NCBI GenBank assembly: GCA_946499505.1
Contig: CAMMSL010000026.1
Location: 1 to 33,314 of the forward strand
Direction of reading: 5' to 3'
Source: an uncultured Lachnoclostridium sp.
GTDB taxonomy: Bacteria > Bacillota > Clostridia > Lachnospirales > Lachnospiraceae
Length of the DNA stretch: 33,314 nt
A program made the translations under genes and the position numbers. This document shows, in pieces, positions 3,100-11,216 of this stretch. The stretch's first letter is position 1; every line of letters starts with the position of its first letter. Below the pieces are notes generated by a model that was not told the origin of the DNA, ran no database searches, and saw nothing but the letters and a program-made list of their open reading frames with translations.

Positions 3100-3743
3100 A
3101 AGGGATCATGCTCAAAGACTTATATGAAAATTTTTACATAAAGAAAAACCTCGCATCCTATATATTCGGAACTTTAATTATCGGGCTTGCAGCATTTTTT
3201 TTAGACACGAGCTATGCCTTTATACTCTATACAATGCTTTTGACTATTGTCTTCGGCTCAGCTACACTGGAAGCCTCTTATGAGCAGGACGAAAAAGCGA
3301 ATTTCTACAAACTTCAGTTCACGTTTCCGATGACAAAAGCAGAGATTGTGGTCTCCAAATACCTGCTCGCCCTAATCTGTACCGGTATCAGTCTGCTGAT
3401 TGCCCTGATCTACGCGCTGGCAAGTGTATATCTCCGTCATCTGGTCACCTTAACAGAAGCGCTGACAGTTTGGGGGCTGAGTATCTGCGCATCTCTTGTC
3501 TTTACATCTGTCGTATACATCTTCTACTTCCTGCTGGGGAAAAAGATCGGAACGATCATTTATGTAGCTGCGGCTGCAATCCTCGGCGGCATGTATGGAA
3601 GTTCAACCGTGTTCTTCGGGATAGAGAGCTATACTTCAACGGATACAGCTGTCCGCCTCTGCTTCCTCCTGCCGGCTTCGCTCGCGGTCTTTGTGCTGAG
3701 CTGCCTGCTGTCCATACAGATTTATAAGAAGAAATACTCATAA
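3096..3743 (+). CDS. ABC-2 type permease (second exporter pair)
   Basis: A 215-aa membrane protein with about six hydrophobic segments, resembling the small ABC-2 permeases that accompany YtrA-type regulators. The central motif ASYEQDEKANFYKLQFTFPMTK is the cytoplasmic segment expected to contact the ATPase. It overlaps the ATPase gene (ATGA) and is the last gene of the operon; a strong terminator begins 5 nt after its stop. Substrate unknown. Confidence 0.83.
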   Translation: MKGIMLKDLYENFYIKKNLASYIFGTLIIGLAAFFLDTSYAFILYTMLLTIVFGSATLEASYEQDEKANFYKLQFTFPMTKAEIVVSKYLLALICTGISLLIALIYALASVYLRHLVTLTEALTVWGLSICASLVFTSVVYIFYFLLGKKIGTIIYVAAAAILGGMYGSSTVFFGIESYTSTDTAVRLCFLLPASLAVFVLSCLLSIQIYKKKYS

Positions 3744-3748
3744 AAATC

Positions 3749-3802
3749 CCCCTGCGGCTATGAAAAGATAAAAAGTATCAGATCAAGCCGCAGGGGTTTT
3801 TT
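3749..3802. terminator. Bidirectional terminator
   Basis: CCCCTGCGGCT (3749-3759) pairs perfectly with AGCCGCAGGGG (3786-3796). A T run follows on the plus strand and an A run precedes on the left, giving a T run on the minus strand. It separates the convergent ABC operon and P-type ATPase gene and can serve both. Confidence 0.9.
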
Positions 3803-3817
3803 CTTTATTGCTTTATA

Positions 3818-5905
3818 TTAAACTTCCTCTTCTGGCAGCAGATCCTGCATACTCTTCAGACTGATCGCCAGCGTCGAAGTATTGTGCAGGAGCGCCGACG
3901 TCGTCGGCTGGATCACCCCGCCCACGCCCAGAGCGATGAGTCCCGAGTTAATCCCGACGATTCCTCTGTAATTACTCTGGATGCGCTTCATCATGGCATT
4001 GGCCAGTTTCTTCAGTGTCACGATCACGCGCAGGTCATCTGCTGCAATAGTGATATCTGCTATTTCCCGGGCAATCTCCGCCCCGTCGCTGATGGCAATA
4101 CCTGCATCCGCAGCAGAAAGTGCCGGGGAATCATTGATCCCGTCTCCGATCATAATGACCTTCTTACCGGCTTCTTTCTCTTTCTCTACAAACCGGGCTT
4201 TATCTTCCGGCAGCACTTCTGAATAATACTCATCCACACCTACACGTCTCGCGATGGACGCAGCCGTACGCTCGCTGTCTCCGGTCATCATCACGACCTT
4301 TTTCAGTCCCTCTTCTTTCAGCATTCTTACCATATCCGCCGCCTCTTCCCGGAGAGGATCCTCAATGCAGATGACCGCTGTCAGCTCGCCATCAATAGCC
4401 AGATACAGATGGGAATACTCTGACGGAAGAGCGTCAAAGCGCACCTGCATCTCCGGCCGGATCCTGCAGTCCTCGTCCTCAAATACAAAATGACTGCTGC
4501 CGATGACTACTTTCTTTTCCTCGATATATGACGAAATACCATGAGCAACGATATACTCCACTTTCGAGTGCATCTCTTCGTGGTAGAGCTTTCTCTTTTT
4601 CGCCGCATCCACCACTGCCTTGGCCATGGAATGTGGAAAATGTTCTTCCAGACAAGCAGCGATGCGGAGCGATTCGTCTTCAGGATACTCCCCAAAAATG
4701 ACTACTTCTTTCACTGTCGGCTTTGCTTTTGTCAGCGTACCGGTCTTGTCAAATACAATCGTGTCGGCCTCCGCCACTGCCTCCAGATATTTCCCGCCTT
4801 TTACCGTGATACCATGCTGTCCGGCCTCACGAATAGCAGAGAGCACTGCAATGGGCATCGCGAGCTTCAGCGCACAGGAAAAATCCACCATCAGGACAGA
4901 GAGCGCCTTCGTCACATTGCGGGTAACAAGTCCTACGATGCCTGTACCGAGAAGTGTATACGGCACCAGTCTGTCCGCCAGATGTTCCGCCTTGCTCTCC
5001 AGTGCGGATTTCAGTTTCTCGGAGTCTTCGATCATAGTCACGATCTTCTCGAACCTGGTCGATCCGGATACTGCTTTTACAAGGATCTCAAGTTCTCCTT
5101 CTTCTAAAACCGTTCCCGCATAGACAGTCTTACCTGTTTCTCTTCTTACCGGAAGGGACTCGCCTGTGAGAGATGCCTGGTTGACCATGCCTTCTCCGCC
5201 GGACACTTCACCGTCAAAGGGGATCACATTTCCCATATGAACGACCACCGTATCACCAGGCTGGATTTCCGATGCGTTGACAAGTATTTCCTGATTGTCT
5301 TTCTTCAGCCATACTTTCTTTACGTTGAGCGACATGCTTCTGGCAAGATCGCCCACGGATTTCTTATGTGTCCACTCTTCCAGTAATTCTCCCACACCGA
5401 GCAGGAACATAACAGACCCTGCCGTGTCAAAGTCGCCCCGAATCACGGACACGCCGATGGCTGCCGCATCAAGAACCGGCACCTCGATCTTCCGCCTTGC
5501 GAGGCACTTAAGACCTTTCCATATATAACGCAGCGCCTTAAACGTCAGCCATGCCTTTCGGGCCGGATACGGAACGATGAGTTTACTGCCGTAATGCAGG
5601 AGCACCCTTGTGATCAACTGCTCCCGAAACGTTGAGTTCAGCTCTCTTCCTGAGCTGGACAGTACATTTTCGGGGACATCCGTATTTTCATAACTGAATC
5701 CTTTGAGCACTGCGATCACCTCTTCGCGGCTTCCCGTGTAACAGATCACGGCATCTGCGGTGCGCTCATATACCTTTGCATCTGTCACATATTCCTGTTT
5801 ACCGAGAAACCAGCAAAGAGTATCCGCCTGCGCACACGTCATTCTCCCTTGAACGGCATGTATACGCAGACGGCCTTTTATCTCATGCTTTATGATAAAT
5901 TTCAT
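3818..5905 (-). CDS. fezB: P1B-6-like P-type ATPase, candidate ferrosome protein FezB
   Basis: A 695-aa metal-translocating P-type ATPase. The N-terminus carries KGRLRIH (residues 10-16) in a degenerate metal-binding fold with no CxxC. Then come two membrane segments (about 141-178), actuator TGES (248-251), two more membrane segments with SCALK (343-347) where CPC is usual, DKTGTLT (386-392), HFPHS, GDGIND and a C-terminal membrane pair. The GRxR N-terminus and SCA membrane motif are what I recall for P1B-6 ATPases such as FezB, which with FezA forms membrane-bounded iron granules in Desulfovibrio magneticus and Clostridioides difficile. The gene starts 6 nt after a small membrane protein and lies beside fur and feo genes. 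P-type ATPase identity is certain; the FezB assignment is inference. A plain heavy-metal exporter is the alternative. Confidence 0.75.
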   Translation of the reverse strand: MKFIIKHEIKGRLRIHAVQGRMTCAQADTLCWFLGKQEYVTDAKVYERTADAVICYTGSREEVIAVLKGFSYENTDVPENVLSSSGRELNSTFREQLITRVLLHYGSKLIVPYPARKAWLTFKALRYIWKGLKCLARRKIEVPVLDAAAIGVSVIRGDFDTAGSVMFLLGVGELLEEWTHKKSVGDLARSMSLNVKKVWLKKDNQEILVNASEIQPGDTVVVHMGNVIPFDGEVSGGEGMVNQASLTGESLPVRRETGKTVYAGTVLEEGELEILVKAVSGSTRFEKIVTMIEDSEKLKSALESKAEHLADRLVPYTLLGTGIVGLVTRNVTKALSVLMVDFSCALKLAMPIAVLSAIREAGQHGITVKGGKYLEAVAEADTIVFDKTGTLTKAKPTVKEVVIFGEYPEDESLRIAACLEEHFPHSMAKAVVDAAKKRKLYHEEMHSKVEYIVAHGISSYIEEKKVVIGSSHFVFEDEDCRIRPEMQVRFDALPSEYSHLYLAIDGELTAVICIEDPLREEAADMVRMLKEEGLKKVVMMTGDSERTAASIARRVGVDEYYSEVLPEDKARFVEKEKEAGKKVIMIGDGINDSPALSAADAGIAISDGAEIAREIADITIAADDLRVIVTLKKLANAMMKRIQSNYRGIVGINSGLIALGVGGVIQPTTSALLHNTSTLAISLKSMQDLLPEEEV

Positions 5906-5911
5906 AGCCTG

Positions 5912-6223
5912 CTATACAGTCTTTGCACTGCTGTCTTCCGCACCATTATCCTCTGCGCCGCTCTCATCAGCCTGAACAGCCGCAGCTTCTTCTGCAGCTC
6001 TCTTCTCATTGATCTGCTGAGCTTCCGCAAGGATATCCTCTGCATTCTCCTGTACTGTCGTCGCTGTCTTCATCACACAGTCTTTCGCGCGCAGTGCAGC
6101 TGCTGTGCAGTTTGCATATACCTTCTTCGCATCCTTGCTTGAGAGTACTTTCACTCCCGCTGTTCCGAACAGGACACCTCCTGCGAATAATCCGATTTTT
6201 TTTAATGTAGATACACTTATCAT
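5912..6223 (-). CDS. Small membrane protein upstream of the ATPase (FezA-like candidate)
   Basis: A 103-aa protein. The start at 6223 is chosen because AGGAGGT lies 7 nt upstream; a reading-frame extension to 6271 has no comparable site. Residues about 8-26 (IGLFAGGVLFGTAGVKVL) form one glycine-rich hydrophobic helix. The rest is soluble and helical, with an Ala/Glu-rich C-terminal half and acidic tail. It ends 6 nt before the ATPase start, so the two are coupled. In C. difficile a membrane protein, FezA, is needed with the P1B-6 ATPase for ferrosome formation; position and topology fit that role, but I have not shown homology. It has no metal-binding CxxC; the only cysteines are two isolated ones. 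Confidence 0.75.
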   Translation of the reverse strand: MISVSTLKKIGLFAGGVLFGTAGVKVLSSKDAKKVYANCTAAALRAKDCVMKTATTVQENAEDILAEAQQINEKRAAEEAAAVQADESGAEDNGAEDSSAKTV

Positions 6224-6303: not shown

Positions 6304-6384
6304 TTATTTGTGCTTATATCCTGTGTAAAATACCATCACAAAACAAAAGACTGCAGCCCACGCCCAAAATCTGTGCTGTTTCAC
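6304..6384 (-). CDS. 26-residue membrane mini-protein in the fez-like leader
   Basis: Read from GTG at 6384, the minus strand encodes MKQHRFWAW, then a hydrophobic stretch AAVFCFVMVFY, then TGYKHK and a stop (26 aa). GGGAG lies 9 nt upstream and an in-frame stop lies two codons before the GTG. Basic ends around one aromatic-rich helix look like a designed single-span protein rather than random sequence. It sits between the predicted promoter (6435-6464) and the 103-aa membrane protein, so it would be the first gene of that transcript. Function unknown; it could be a subunit or a leader peptide. Confidence 0.5.
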   Translation of the reverse strand: MKQHRFWAWAAVFCFVMVFYTGYKHK

Positions 6385-6434
6385 AGTTCACCACTCCCTT
6401 GTTAATAATATGTAAAATTATCGGGTTCTGTCAC

Positions 6435-6464
6435 ATCATAGCTCCCGCTTTCAAAGCTAGTCAA
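6435..6464 (-). promoter_or_regulatory. Predicted promoter of the fez-like operon
   Basis: On the minus strand, TTGACT (6464-6459), an 18-nt spacer and TATGAT (6440-6435). Transcription would start near 6428, about 45 nt before the mini-ORF and 205 nt before the 103-aa gene. Two Fur-box-like sequences lie upstream. Confidence 0.55.
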
Positions 6465-6480
6465 TTCTAACACCGGCTAT

Positions 6481-6495
6481 CGATAAATCTTATCA
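6481..6495. promoter_or_regulatory. Fur-box-like inverted repeat (proximal)
   Basis: CGATAAATCTTATCA has GATAA/TTATC arms and matches 11 of 14 defined positions of the 7-1-7 Fur consensus TGATAATnATTATCA. It lies about 17 nt upstream of the predicted -35. A fur-family gene begins nearby. Binding is inference. Confidence 0.4.
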
Positions 6496-6579: not shown

Positions 6580-6978
6580 TCACTTTTGAACTTCTATTTT
6601 TGCTATTTTCTGATTTTTCAGATACCCGCACCGCCGCATTCCTTCCCGCACCACTTTATTCCAGTTACCGGGGGAAAGATGGCAGATCGTATTGTCATCC
6701 AGTATGATCTCACAGCCTCCCTGTGACCCGCAGTTATCGGAACATTCCACCTTATACATATTCTTCCGGCTGATCGCCCCGATATCCTCAAGGGCATTGA
6801 TCATACGGTAGACTGTCGCGACACCGATCCTGTGGTCTGCCTTTGATGCTTTGTAAAAAATCTCTTTACAGCTTGAACAGTCATTTTCCAGAATAATGTC
6901 TATGAGCATAAGGCGCTGTTTTGTAATGCGGCATCCGTTTTCTTTCAGCTTTTCGATTATCTGATCTTTCTTGTTCAC
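6580..6978 (-). CDS. Fur-family metal-responsive regulator, atypical C-terminus
   Basis: A 132-aa protein starting with GTG; AGGAGG lies 5 nt upstream. Residues 1-80 are a Fur winged helix (GCRITKQRLMLIDIIL, then IGVATVYRMINALEDIGAI). The C-terminal part is short and lacks the usual histidine cluster and paired CxxC motifs; it has CSDNCGSQGGC, HLSPGNW and another Cys instead. Classical Fur binds DNA when loaded with ferrous iron; this one may sense metal differently or sense redox state. It lies 55 nt after the HMA protein gene and upstream of the fez-like genes, so it may be the distal gene of the feo transcript and the regulator of its neighbours. Confidence 0.8.
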   Translation of the reverse strand: MNKKDQIIEKLKENGCRITKQRLMLIDIILENDCSSCKEIFYKASKADHRIGVATVYRMINALEDIGAISRKNMYKVECSDNCGSQGGCEIILDDNTICHLSPGNWNKVVREGMRRCGYLKNQKIAKIEVQK

Positions 6979-7033: not shown

Positions 7034-7396
7034 TTACGAAATACTGACGACCTCATACCCTGCTTTTTCCACTGCCTGTTTCAATTCAATCTCATCAATT
7101 GTGCGGTCATAGGAAACCTCCGCACAGTTCTGGCGCAAATTTACTTTTGCCGCAACTCCGTCAATGGCGTTAAGCGCACGCGTCACGCTGTTGGCACAGT
7201 TCTGGCAGTGCATGCCGGATATTTTGATCGTGCGTCTCCCGATCACCGGGCCGTCAAGAGTCTTTGCCTTCGGCTTCCTGTCGGGAACGGAACCACCTCC
7301 GCAGCATGCTCCTTCGCCCTTAAAATGTTTAATCGATCCTTTCAGTGCAAATATCAGCAATACTACTACGATAAGTATAATAACCGCATCAACCAT
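7034..7396 (-). CDS. Membrane-anchored heavy-metal-associated (HMA) domain protein
   Basis: About 120 aa. The Met at 7396 is preferred over the one at 7402 because GAGGG is then 6 nt upstream rather than adjacent. Residues about 5-20 are one hydrophobic helix, followed by a basic/Gly/Cys linker (ACCGGG) and an HMA fold with GMHCQNC and the C-terminal EKAGYEV. HMA domains bind soft metals through CxxC and are usual in copper chaperones. Here the gene lies between FeoB-associated genes and fur, so the protein could pass metal to a transporter or buffer it at the membrane. Which metal it binds cannot be told. Confidence 0.8.
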   Translation of the reverse strand: MVDAVIILIVVVLLIFALKGSIKHFKGEGACCGGGSVPDRKPKAKTLDGPVIGRRTIKISGMHCQNCANSVTRALNAIDGVAAKVNLRQNCAEVSYDRTIDEIELKQAVEKAGYEVVSIS

Positions 7397-7435
7397 AGCC
7401 ATCCCTCTTTATGCTTATTCTTCCAAAATCTTCTG

Positions 7436-7584: not shown

Positions 7585-7761
7585 TCATTTCTTATCCGGC
7601 GTGGAAACCGGATGCGCCGGGCATCCGCCGCACGACCCGCAGTTCCCGCTGCATCCTGCACAGCCCACAGGTTTTCCTGCTTTTTTGTTTTTATATCCTT
7701 TATAAATGAGGAAGATACAATACCCCAGAATCAGGGCCAGTATCACAATATCAGCGATCAT
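7585..7761 (-). CDS. FeoB-associated Cys-rich membrane protein
   Basis: A 58-aa protein. The start at 7761 (MIADIV) has GAAGGTG 6 nt upstream; a 10-residue extension to 7791 lacks such a site. One N-terminal hydrophobic helix (IADIVILALILGYCIFLIY) is followed by a basic segment and a cluster of cysteines in CAGC, GNC, GSC and GGC. This layout matches the small family found next to feoB in Firmicutes, thought to stand in for FeoC, perhaps by holding iron or an Fe-S cluster near the transporter mouth. It lies 155 nt after feoB, behind a hairpin. Confidence 0.85.
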   Translation of the reverse strand: MIADIVILALILGYCIFLIYKGYKNKKAGKPVGCAGCSGNCGSCGGCPAHPVSTPDKK

Positions 7762-7822
7762 GCCCGCACCTTCTTTCTGTTTATCTGACAAATATGTTAT
7801 TTCTTATACTATTTTACGGAAA

Positions 7823-7916: not shown

Positions 7917-10100
7917 TTATGCGTTCTGTACAGAACGTTTGGAGTATACTTTCTGGTTCTTATACGGATCAGGTCTGAACAGCAGTACGAGCAGAATGAT
8001 CGCAAAGATAAATCCGACCGCCGTACCGGCTGTAAATCCTCCGCCCAGTACGAATGTACCGATCTGGTATACTGTAAGAGATATCACGTATGCAAACACG
8101 TTCTGGAACACGATCGCAAACCAGAACCACTTTCTGGACTGCATCTGCTGTGCCATCGTAGCGATCGCCGCCAGACACGGAGAGTCGAGCAGATTAAACA
8201 GCAGGAATGAGAATGCCGCCATCGCACTCGGGAACCATGCTGCAACGCCGCCGGCTACGTTTACCGCATCTTCCGTATCTCCTGCTACGTTTGCAAGGAC
8301 ACCCATGGTAGATACGATCGCTTCTTTCGCAGTAAATCCTGAAAGGGATGCTGCAACCGGCTGCCACTCGCCAAATCCGAGAGGAATGAAGATCGGCGCA
8401 ATGATTCCTCCGATCGCCGCCAGAAGACTGTCCGCGCTGTCCTCTACCATTCCAAAACCGCCGTCGGTAAATCCGAAGCCGCCGAGGAACCACATTACTA
8501 CGCATGCAAGGAACAGAATCGTTCCGGCTTTGATGATAAAGCCTTTCAGTCTTTCCCATACATGGAGAAGAACTGTTCTGACCTGCGGAACGTGATACTG
8601 AGGAAGCTCCATAACAAACGGCGCCGGCTTTCCTGAGAACGGCTTTGTTTTCTTTAAGATGATTGCCGCAACAAGCACTGCGATGATACCGATGAAATAC
8701 ATCAGAGGAGCGATAAACGAGCTTTCTGTGTATCCGGCTGCCTCACCTGCGATCACACCGCCCATCAGGGCAATAACCGGGAGCTTAGCGCCGCACGGGA
8801 TAAAAGTTGCCGTCATGATTGTCAGACGTCTGTCATTATCCTGCTCGATCGTCTTGGACGCCATAATTCCCGGGATACCGCATCCGGAAGAAATCAAAAG
8901 CGGGATAAAGCTCTTGCCCGAAAGTCCGAAATGACGGAATACACGGTCCATGACAAATGCAATACGCACCATATAACCACAATCTTCAAGTATGGACAGG
9001 AACAGGAACAATACCGCCATCTGCGGGACAAATCCAAGCACTGCCCCGAGGCCGCCAATGATACCATCCACTACAAGTCCCGTCACCAGATCTCCCGCGC
9101 CGATACTTCCCAGGAATCCGCCCACGGCATCCTGAATTGCCACAACGAATACATCGTTGGTCCAGTCTGTCACCCACGTACCTACCGTCGTGACAGATAC
9201 ATAATATACAGCCCACATAATAATGATAAAGATCGGGATTCCGAGAATACGGTTTGTAACGATACGGTCGATCTTATCCGATGTAGTAAGCTTTTCTTTT
9301 CCTTTCTGTACCGTTGTCTTAACGATCTGCTGTATGTATTTGTAGCGTTCATCCGTCACGATACTTTCCATATCATCGTCATGCTTTTTCTCGATCTTTC
9401 CTCTTAGATCAGCTACTGCTGACGCTGCCGACGCAGGAAGTTTTACGCTTTCGACTACCTTACTGTCATTCTCAAGGAACTTGACGGCATACCATCTTTT
9501 CTTATCATCGGTGATCGTTTCCGGAAGGAGCCCCTTCACTTCCGAAACCGCGCCTTCCATCTCCTTGGAGAAGATCTCTCCCGGAAGGCTGATTTCTTTT
9601 TTCTTCGCTACTTTCACCGCCTCGTCGATCAGTTCCGTAAGCCCCGTCTGTTTCAGGGCAGACGTCTCAATGATCGGGCATCCCAGCAGCATGGAAAGAC
9701 GCTTTGTATCAATCTTCATGCCTCTTTTTTCAATCAGGTCAGCCATATTAAGTGCGATAACTACCGGCACTCCCGTCTCGATAAGCTGTGTTGTCAGATA
9801 CAGGTTACGCTCGATATTTGTAGCATCCACCAGATCAATGATCACATCCGGGTTCTCATTCAGCACATAGTCGCGGCTGACAACCTCCTCCAGCGTATAT
9901 GGGGAAAGGGAATAGATTCCCGGCAGGTCGGTTACTATGACTTCTTCCCCTTTTGCCTTCCTGCTCTTCACCTTACCTTCTTTCTTCTCAACCGTAACTC
10001 CCGGCCAGTTTCCGACATACTGGTTCGCGCCGGTCAGTGCGTTGAACATCGTCGTCTTACCACAGTTCGGGTTTCCGGCGAGTGCAATTCTTATTGCCAT
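7917..10100 (-). CDS. feoB: Ferrous iron transporter FeoB
   Basis: A 727-aa inner-membrane ferrous iron transporter. The N-terminal G-protein domain has G1 GNPNCGKT (9-16), G3 DLPG (58-61) and G4 NMAD (118-121). A helical spacer with KRWYAVKFLE follows. The C-terminal membrane domain from about residue 285 has the gate motifs SSGCGIPGIMASKTI and PCGAKLPV and about ten hydrophobic segments. Length is usual for Clostridia. AAAGGAGG precedes the ATG. Two feoA genes lie just upstream in the same operon. Confidence 0.97.
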   Translation of the reverse strand: MAIRIALAGNPNCGKTTMFNALTGANQYVGNWPGVTVEKKEGKVKSRKAKGEEVIVTDLPGIYSLSPYTLEEVVSRDYVLNENPDVIIDLVDATNIERNLYLTTQLIETGVPVVIALNMADLIEKRGMKIDTKRLSMLLGCPIIETSALKQTGLTELIDEAVKVAKKKEISLPGEIFSKEMEGAVSEVKGLLPETITDDKKRWYAVKFLENDSKVVESVKLPASAASAVADLRGKIEKKHDDDMESIVTDERYKYIQQIVKTTVQKGKEKLTTSDKIDRIVTNRILGIPIFIIIMWAVYYVSVTTVGTWVTDWTNDVFVVAIQDAVGGFLGSIGAGDLVTGLVVDGIIGGLGAVLGFVPQMAVLFLFLSILEDCGYMVRIAFVMDRVFRHFGLSGKSFIPLLISSGCGIPGIMASKTIEQDNDRRLTIMTATFIPCGAKLPVIALMGGVIAGEAAGYTESSFIAPLMYFIGIIAVLVAAIILKKTKPFSGKPAPFVMELPQYHVPQVRTVLLHVWERLKGFIIKAGTILFLACVVMWFLGGFGFTDGGFGMVEDSADSLLAAIGGIIAPIFIPLGFGEWQPVAASLSGFTAKEAIVSTMGVLANVAGDTEDAVNVAGGVAAWFPSAMAAFSFLLFNLLDSPCLAAIATMAQQMQSRKWFWFAIVFQNVFAYVISLTVYQIGTFVLGGGFTAGTAVGFIFAIILLVLLFRPDPYKNQKVYSKRSVQNA

Positions 10101-10148: not shown

Positions 10149-10367
10149 CTATTTCACCTGAACGCATTGTGCGTCGTTTTTCCTTACGGACAACTCGTAT
10201 CCGCGGACTGTGATCTCAACCGGATCGCCGAGCGGCGCTACTTTTCTGATGTAGAGTTCACTGCCTTTTGTAATCCCCATATCCATGATACGGCGCTTAT
10301 AGGCGCTGTCACCTTCTATCTTTGTTACAACAACAGTGCTTCCCACCTTTGCATCACCTAATGTCAT
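10149..10367 (-). CDS. feoA: FeoA-family protein (proximal to feoB)
   Basis: A 72-aa SH3-like FeoA protein: TLGDAKVGSTVVVTKIEG, DMGITKGSELYIRKVAPLGDPVEITVRGYELSVR, the typical FeoA core. FeoA binds or modulates FeoB in the cytoplasm. GGAAAGGAG precedes the ATG. It lies 48 nt upstream of feoB and 57 nt after a second feoA. The two paralogues differ clearly in sequence, so they may form distinct contacts or a heteromer. Confidence 0.93.
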   Translation of the reverse strand: MTLGDAKVGSTVVVTKIEGDSAYKRRIMDMGITKGSELYIRKVAPLGDPVEITVRGYELSVRKNDAQCVQVK

Positions 10368-10424: not shown

Positions 10425-10634
10425 TCAGATCATTATATGCCGCGCCATATCAGCATTAATGGCGACACGTGAATCTTTGATATTTACGATCACGTTGCCG
10501 CCGATTGCAGATAACACGGTGACTTCCGTCCCCGCAACAAACCCGAGATTTTCAAGGAATCTTTTCGTCTCATCGTTTCCTCCGACTCTCCGGATGGTAT
10601 TAATTTCGCCTATCGCTGCCATTGTAAGTGGCAT
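10425..10634 (-). CDS. feoA: FeoA-family protein (first gene of operon)
   Basis: A 69-aa FeoA homologue: MAAIGEINTIRRVGGNDETKRFLENLGFVAGTEVTVLSAIGGNVIVNIKDSRVAI, ending in MARHIMI. GAGGG lies 9 nt before the ATG at 10634. A second in-frame Met (MAAIG) lies four codons in. It is the first gene of the feo operon, about 75 nt downstream of its transcription start. Tandem feoA genes before feoB are common in Clostridia. Confidence 0.92.
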   Translation of the reverse strand: MPLTMAAIGEINTIRRVGGNDETKRFLENLGFVAGTEVTVLSAIGGNVIVNIKDSRVAINADMARHIMI

Positions 10635-10713
10635 AAGAAAACCCTCTTTCCAATCATATTAAAAATCTACTTATTGAGATTGATAATATTTTTCATTTAT
10701 TTTCTTTCCATTA

Positions 10714-10820: not shown

Positions 10821-10856
10821 TAATGGAAAGTATTTTGAAAGAGCGAGGTGAAAACT

Positions 10857-11216
10857 ATGCATGGAAATGAATCTGCTGAAAATTATCTGGAAACAATTCT
10901 GGTCTTAAGCCAGCGCCTCCCTGTCGTACGTTCCGTAGACGTGGCAACAGAACTGAACTTCAAGAAATCCAGCGTAAGTGTTGCCATGAAAAAATTAAGA
11001 GAAAGCGGACATATCGTAGTCTCACCGGAGGGATATATCACCCTTACCGATGCCGGAAAAGAGATTGCCGACTGTATCTATGAACGCCACACGCTTCTGT
11101 CCTCATGGCTCACTCGTCTCGGAGTAGATCCGAAAGTTGCTGCAGAAGACGCCTGCCGGATCGAGCATGTGATCAGCGCTGAGAGCTTTGAAGCGATAAA
11201 AAGACATATCAAATAA
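10857..11216 (+). CDS. DtxR-family iron-dependent regulator, short form
   Basis: A 119-aa regulator. The ATG at 10857 is chosen because GAGGTG lies 6 nt upstream; the in-frame GTG at 10848 is part of that site. Residues about 1-65 are the winged helix (SVDVATELNFKKSSVSVAMKKL); the rest is the metal/dimer domain. There is no SH3-like third domain. AEDACRIEHVIS keeps the Cys, Glu and His that form the primary metal site of DtxR/IdeR, which points to iron rather than manganese. The N-terminal ligand position (Met10 in DtxR, Asp8 in MntR) appears to be Asn, and two ancillary-site ligands are missing. Divergence from feo marks it as the feo repressor. Confidence 0.87.
   Translation: MHGNESAENYLETILVLSQRLPVVRSVDVATELNFKKSSVSVAMKKLRESGHIVVSPEGYITLTDAGKEIADCIYERHTLLSSWLTRLGVDPKVAAEDACRIEHVISAESFEAIKRHIK

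Follow-up and report, generated by a model that had tools for sequence, protein, structure and literature searches.

Does a P-type ATPase gene that stands directly after a gene for a small membrane protein in an uncultured Lachnoclostridium sp. belong to a system for storing iron in ferrosomes, and what else does the operon contain? We analysed a stretch of 33,314 nucleotides (nt) from contig CAMMSL010000026.1 (assembly GCA_946499505.1), referred to here as the window, in which a first-pass annotation made from the sequence alone had proposed a candidate fezAB locus. The window very probably carries the fezAB pair by which C. difficile stores iron in granules bounded by a membrane. Moreover, a third gene, absent from the first-pass annotation, encodes a microprotein of 26 amino acids (aa) at the head of the operon. 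That the operon is of an already known kind, fezAB as in C. difficile, is well supported; the conserved leading microprotein is what is new here. The three genes are as follows.

6304..6384, minus strand: 26-aa one-span microprotein, a DUF6219 half-unit and the first gene of the operon; GTG start and Shine-Dalgarno-like site
5912..6223, minus strand: fezA-type DUF6110 protein of 103 aa; one glycine-rich membrane helix and one long helix
3818..5905, minus strand: fezB-type P1B-6 ATPase of 695 aa; degenerate N-terminal HMA-like domain, GRLR, SCALK, DKTGT and HN

The ATPase and its DUF6110 partner

The 695-aa ATPase begins MKFIIKHEIKGRLR and, as the first-pass annotation had described, has GRLR at residues 11-14 and SCALK in the membrane, while CxxC is absent. 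SCALK, the ion site, lies within DFSCALK; the protein also contains DKTGT and, close to the C terminus, H674 and N675. In an alignment of 32 FezB-type proteins, S343, C344, A345, K347, H674 and N675 are invariant or at least 90% conserved, and the available text of Boudehen et al. 2022 (PMC9374683) lists HN among the features of P1B6 ATPases.

To place the ATPase, we used a tree with 106 P1B rows from genome scans (45 SCxxK, 51 CPC, 4 SPC and 6 other), built by a 'quick' method with support from the Shimodaira-Hasegawa-like approximate likelihood ratio test (SH-aLRT) only; five of 111 rows had been left out beforehand, three without a usable reading frame (L002, L005 and L164), one short (L118) and one truncated (L109). 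Subfamilies in this tree are told by motif, named FezB, CopA, ZntA, PfeT and CtpC references being outside it. All 45 SCxxK rows, the window ATPase included, form one side of a branch that separates them from the CPC, SPC and other rows (SH-aLRT 98), and the grouping with P1B-1, P1B-2 or P1B-4 exporters that the first-pass annotation had named as refuting its proposal was not found. The window ATPase lies within a ten-row group that includes a Clostridioides protein (SH-aLRT 93), and the wider set around this group includes proteins of Mailhella (Desulfovibrionaceae), a methanogen, Deinococcus, Azospirillum, Arcobacter and Vibrio. In total, the sequence comparison confirms the window ATPase as a member of the P1B-6 (FezB-type) clade, apart from the CPC and SPC exporters, and its tree placement rejects an identity as a copper, zinc or P1B-4 exporter.

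An N-terminal GRxR was also considered as sole marker of FezB and was rejected because a CPC-type ATPase (L115), placed beside the FezB-type set with weak support (38), has the similar start PGRIRIR. A Bacteroidales ATPase (L119) with DYSCGIR branches basally in the FezB-type set; no DUF6110-like neighbour was found within its available stretch.

In an AlphaFold2 model of FezB with a mean predicted local distance difference test score (pLDDT) of 79, residues 1-68 form two short strands, a helix, two strands and a helix, a predicted arrangement that would fit a degenerate HMA domain. The best matches of the model to solved structures are mostly copper, zinc and cadmium P1B pumps; structures of KdpB and SERCA match it too, which is expected for every P-type ATPase.

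The gene for the 103-aa partner ends 6 nt before fezB, and the protein is a member of DUF6110 (PF19605; E = 2.4e-41). Modelled by AlphaFold2 with moderate confidence (mean pLDDT 70, predicted template modelling score 0.30), it has a glycine-rich helix at residues 4-27 and a long helix at 30-88; both the gap and the single-span glycine-rich layout given in the first-pass annotation hold.

The pairing of these two families recurs. We examined 30 DUF6110 loci, that of the window and 29 others. In 28 of them, one of which (L044) is cut by a contig end, the DUF6110 gene is directly followed on the same strand by a gene for a FezB-type ATPase; this recurrence argues that the arrangement is beyond chance. 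The exceptions, without a FezB gene after DUF6110, are L041 (genome G355) and L045 (genome G035); G035 has a second, complete locus on another contig. In 391 genomes of the window's class, which named relatives suggest to be Clostridia (family Lachnospiraceae), we counted a genome as FezB-positive at 482 bits or more, a threshold set after seeing the gap to the next match at 323 bits, by which 7 further genomes below it count as negative. All 28 FezB-positive genomes are among the 29 with DUF6110 at E<=1e-3 (24 of them over the Pfam cut-off). In the window's family, DUF6110 is present in 86 of 210 genomes, each of a different genus. A scan of named records with an unspecific motif gave at least 80 loci, and a profile of 26 DUF6110 proteins found a DUF6110-like gene upstream in 18 of the 19 named non-training FezB-type loci among the matches listed, L108 being the miss. 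Named loci with the pair include Faecalibacterium (L100, F. prausnitzii), Blautia (L102), Anaerotignum (L106, A. lactatifermentans), Mailhella and Methanobrevibacter (L110). That DUF6110 proteins are typically encoded with P1B6 ATPases has already been published, as the available text of Boudehen et al. 2022 states (PMC9374683).

FezB-type genes also occur on plasmid records of Deinococcus (L176), Azospirillum (L175) and Arcobacter (L177), and the system can therefore be plasmid-borne. The DUF6110-like gene is clear on the Deinococcus plasmid; in L175 and L177, longer runs of small genes precede the ATPase.

The C. difficile FezA-FezB ferrosome system was reportedly described by Pi et al. 2023. 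In the available texts of two further papers, C. difficile fezAB is CD630_05910-05920 (PMC11651100) and Clostridioides fezAB makes ferrosomes (PMC12574912). Like that system, the window has a membrane protein and a P1B-6 ATPase encoded as a two-gene pair. In Clostridioides genome G301 (4.26 Mb, a single contig), the one DUF6110 match is directly followed by a FezB-type ATPase gene; the ATPase is 59% identical to that of the window, and its partner is also DUF6110 (E = 1e-20). Because of this identity and the shared partner family, we file the window pair as FezAB, and the proposal that the 103-aa protein is FezA stands. The window locus differs in being led by the microprotein, to which G301 has no match, and in adjoining feo genes and a gene for a divergent Fur-family protein.

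Gram-negative fez operons are said to have been described by Grant et al. 2022 in D. magneticus, R. palustris and S. putrefaciens. FezB-type ATPases of Mailhella, Azospirillum, Arcobacter and Vibrio fall in the same set as the window ATPase, in a comparison that has those three operons outside it. Directly upstream of FezB, a DUF6110-like small protein is encoded in Mailhella (E = 1e-11), weakly in Vibrio (6e-4) and marginally in Arcobacter (0.018) and Azospirillum (0.08). The Azospirillum plasmid operon differs from that of the window in having two HMA_2-like genes, and the R. palustris fez operon has six genes according to the available text of PMC12016538.

A conserved microprotein upstream of fezA

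A comparison of the 400 nt ahead of fezA in different loci revealed a conserved 26-aa peptide, which in the window is encoded at 6304-6384. The consensus of 16 copies is MKQHRFWAWAAVICFxMxMITGYKRK, with H4 and T21-G22-Y23 among the conserved residues, and a Shine-Dalgarno-like site precedes 29 of the 30 single-unit copies examined. The ratio of nonsynonymous to synonymous polymorphism (pN/pS) is 0.29 in frame vs 1.4 in the other two frames. The microprotein gene is under purifying selection.

The window microprotein matches positions 1-25 of DUF6219 (PF19727) with 23.5 bits; because this partial match is below the Pfam cut-off of 27, we regard the microprotein as a relative of DUF6219, a half-unit, and not as a member. 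No NCBIfam model matched the window peptide. Full DUF6219 proteins (three scanned, 136-145 bits) are tandem duplications, with two copies of the unit in the same frame, and span 69 positions, in contrast to the single 26-aa unit in the window. DUF6219 was found above its cut-off in none of the 391 class genomes, and no paper in the literature library searched mentions it.

Seven complete two-unit loci were viewed (L266-L269 and L273-L275), three of which (L266, L267 and L268) come from a single genome. In three of the seven (L268, L269 and L273), the two-unit gene lies directly before genes for a Bcp-like peroxiredoxin and YaaA (peroxide stress), and a Fur-family gene is near it in L273; the neighbours in L268 and the Fur-family gene in L273 were assigned by family scan and the others by near-identical starts. 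Two unlinked single units follow a gene of the metallo-beta-lactamase fold, in L277 (2689-3636, fused in frame) and in L279 (2623-3540).

We then compared the distribution of the microprotein with that of the fez genes, using for the class scan a profile from ten linked copies (A3) and for the family scan a 16-row profile (A4). In the class, 11 of the 391 genomes have the microprotein at E<1e-8 (next best 0.0039), and every one of them is FezB-positive (Fisher P = 3e-14); the same is true of all six carriers from outside the training set (P = 2e-8). In one of these six the microprotein gene comes after fezB; in the other five it is located away from fezAB. In the family, 49 of the 210 genomes carry the microprotein at E<=1e-3, and 46 of the 49 have DUF6110 (P = 7e-19 against the overall frequency). 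Among strong carriers (E<1e-10), one of which is the window's own genome and part of the training set, all 31 have DUF6110, as do 15 of the 18 weaker carriers. The microprotein gene lies 31-292 nt upstream of the DUF6110 match in 25 of the 31 strong carriers; in the other six, it is on a different contig than DUF6110, and these are DUF6110-positive as well (6/6, P = 0.001).

The DUF6110-negative family carriers are G411, G430 and G552; G411 has genes for the microprotein, a FezA-like and a FezB-like protein in a row (L270), and the family P values were computed on the uncorrected count, with G411 as DUF6110-negative. All these statistics treat genomes as independent, and shared descent inflates their significance even with one genome per genus; moreover, the named training loci L095, L096, L098 and L109 could be from the same organisms as some family genomes. 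In total, we conclude that in the searched genomes the microprotein occurs almost only in genomes that have the fez pair.

Operon layout, regulation and iron-gene neighbourhood

On the minus strand the order is candidate promoter, microprotein gene, fezA, fezB and stem-loop. The elements outside the three genes, together with an operator-like match near feo, are as follows.

6481..6495, minus strand: TGATAAGATTTATCG, a suggestive candidate for a Fur-family operator; 111 nt ahead of the start of the microprotein gene
6435..6464, minus strand: TTGACT-18-TATGAT, a candidate sigma-70 promoter preceding the microprotein gene; consensus match only
6405-6434, minus strand: further candidate sigma-70 promoter; consensus match only
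3742..3803, no strand assigned: strong stem-loop (z -7.2) between the convergent fez and ABC-transporter genes
10681..10695, plus strand: second operator-like palindrome with 2 mismatches, upstream of feoA

The stem-loop is probably a terminator common to the fez and ABC-transporter genes. Even when up to 3 mismatches are allowed, the window has no match to the canonical Fur box GATAATGATAATCATTATC. The best matches to the canonical Fur consensus upstream of fezA average 12.0 of 19 vs 11.3 in shuffles, with P = 0.055 for the window; upstream of 19 microprotein-linked genes, the combined P is 0.04. The operator palindrome has two matches in the window, and as many were found in 6 of 100 shuffles. 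The palindrome TGATAAAATTTATCA, whose 7-1-7 layout we take to resemble that of Fur boxes, is perfect in L250 (109 nt before the microprotein gene) and in L253 (98 nt before it). Upstream of 60 loci, four of them seed loci, the combined P of the palindrome is 0.001; the value for the window, P = 0.003, is not independent, the window having been inspected before the test. Altogether, these matches are suggestive of a Fur-family operator ahead of the operon, at which a Fur-family protein would act as repressor.

Further upstream of the operon lie the following genes.

6580..6978, minus strand: divergent Fur-family regulator; Fur DNA-binding half and a non-canonical, cysteine-containing C-terminal half
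7034..7402, minus strand: membrane-anchored HMA-domain protein with a cysteine-glycine stretch like that of FeoB-associated proteins
7585..7791, minus strand: FeoB-associated cysteine-rich membrane protein
7917..10100, minus strand: FeoB
10149..10367, minus strand: FeoA
10425..10634, minus strand: second FeoA
10848..11216, plus strand: MntR/DtxR-type regulator, divergent to feo

The first-pass annotation had placed the locus beside fur and feo. The feo genes are there; the fur part is only half right because the neighbour is a divergent Fur-fold protein. Of the 121 positions of the Fur family, the regulator matches only 1-64, and it is without the histidine-rich half, which a full-length canonical Fur encoded elsewhere in the genome (L179, contig C43) has; with the canonical sensor half lost, we rejected an identity as classical Fur. 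The regulator may therefore read a signal other than iron. Its C-terminal half reads CSDNCGSQGGC..., and a relative adjoins feoB in L039. Relatives of the HMA-domain protein are found near fezA in three other loci (L039, L040 and L043), and the protein may serve FeoB or FezB as an iron chaperone. The earlier suggestion that import and storage genes form one block applies to the window, where feo adjoins fez, and not as a general rule, FeoB being present in 8 of the 30 DUF6110 loci.

Proposed function and alternatives

We consider it probable, judging from the sequence, that the microprotein gene, fezA and fezB form a short operon, presumably transcribed together, that stores iron in ferrosomes. 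FezB, as a P1B-6 pump, would transport ferrous iron across a membrane organised by FezA into a compartment, and FezA, with its glycine-rich membrane helix and long helix, would scaffold or recruit the pump. The microprotein may act in the membrane as an accessory partner, tuning or stabilising either the pump or the compartment. Among the mechanisms considered, this is the most likely; its FezB and FezA steps are based on family membership and on published work on relatives, and its microprotein step on co-occurrence and gene order. That the window pair itself forms granules is inferred from its sequence. The observations of the first-pass annotation are confirmed, and its interpretation is partly supported.

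Several findings weigh against this proposal. The founding FezB proteins of D. magneticus, R. palustris and S. putrefaciens are outside the comparison, and G301 was called Clostridioides from short matches (1-3% of the query) to 5/5 phage and 20/20 plasmid records, all Clostridioides. A search of the window's genome for DUF4405, the family of the FezC-like cytochrome, gave 0 matches at E<=0.001, and for this reason the operon is not filed as a Gram-negative-type fez operon. The genome also encodes a true ferritin (L182), so ferrosomes would not be its only iron store and storage is probably layered. Without the four seed loci the palindrome has P = 0.07, with 7 of 56 loci at P<=0.05. As for the microprotein, no clear match was found in 17 of the 28 FezB-positive class genomes, G301 among them, and none at E<=1e-3 in 40 of the 86 DUF6110-positive family genomes; moreover, after correction for G411, two of the 49 family carriers (G430 and G552) are without a DUF6110 match. 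Because many fez genomes are without it, the microprotein would be at most an accessory component, and not a core or essential one.

A different explanation concerns the microprotein alone: it may have a general role in iron metabolism or peroxide stress, its link to fez resulting from common ecology or descent and not from direct interaction. We regard this as a genuine possibility, if short of an even chance. It would account for the unlinked copies in fez-positive genomes and for the two-unit DUF6219 genes before peroxiredoxin and YaaA genes, in one case close to a Fur-family gene; however, the microprotein gene lies just upstream of fezA in 25 of the 31 strong carriers, and carriers without fez are rare, numbering none of 11 in the class sample and two of 49 in the corrected family sample.

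Less likely is that the pair acts in export. By this explanation, DUF6110 would cluster the P1B-6 ATPase in metal-export patches of the plasma membrane, like PacL1 and CtpC in mycobacteria, and no organelle would form. In both cases a small glycine-containing one-span partner is encoded with a P1B ATPase, and the layout predicted for the DUF6110 protein, one glycine-rich membrane helix and a further helix, is similar to that of PacL. Moreover, the available texts of Boudehen et al. 2022 (PMC9374683) and of a 2026 paper (PMC13043812) report a similarity of DUF6110 to PacL (DUF1490), the latter calling DUF6110 proteins PacL-like and raising effluxosome-like assemblies, and the FezA relative in L270 scores better against DUF1490 (E = 5.6e-5) than against DUF6110 (E = 0.0024). 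In our reading, FezA and PacL are scaffolds related to each other. By contrast, the window ATPase has SCALK where CtpC has CPC, and PacL1 has a metal-binding motif, to which the window pair has no match and which is not predicted for DUF6110, as far as the available text of PMC9374683 goes. The window pair includes neither a DUF1490 partner nor a CPC-type ATPase, the marks of a PacL platform. The window ATPase also sits in the FezB-type set with a protein of Clostridioides, the genus of the ferrosomes reported in the available text of PMC12574912, and the fez genes adjoin iron-import genes, which argues against an efflux platform. No paper with both 'PacL1' and 'ferrosome' was found in the open library, which covers the two papers linking DUF6110 with PacL and leaves out the ferrosome papers of Grant et al. 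2022 and Pi et al. 2023.

Finally, a ferrous-iron exporter serving detoxification without storage would fit a P1B pump with iron-gene neighbours, and other P1B ATPases such as PfeT do export iron, but it is improbable, since P1B-4 pumps such as PfeT carry SPC, the four SPC rows of the tree group apart from the window ATPase, and a plain exporter would not be expected to have a DUF6110 partner, as almost all of the FezB loci examined do.

Storage in ferrosomes by a microprotein-fezA-fezB operon leads to a wider and more tentative proposal, based on analogy. Very short one-span partners of P-type ATPases are known in KdpF, sarcolipin and phospholamban, which the microprotein resembles by analogy only. 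Many clostridial ferrosome systems might have a dedicated FezB-binding 26-aa microprotein, as KdpB has KdpF and SERCA has sarcolipin, with its tandem duplicate, DUF6219, adapting this machinery to peroxide stress and with FezA PacL-like; we hold this combination to be less probable than not. The 26-aa membrane microprotein, overlooked by annotation until now, gives a lead to the function of DUF6219, a Pfam family without a paper in the library searched, and offers a small and specific way into the question of how P-type ATPases become organelle pumps. A link between FezA and PacL would join two lines of work and, if the proposal is true, ferrosomes and mycobacterial efflux platforms would be one class, assemblies of P1B pumps organised by tiny membrane proteins.

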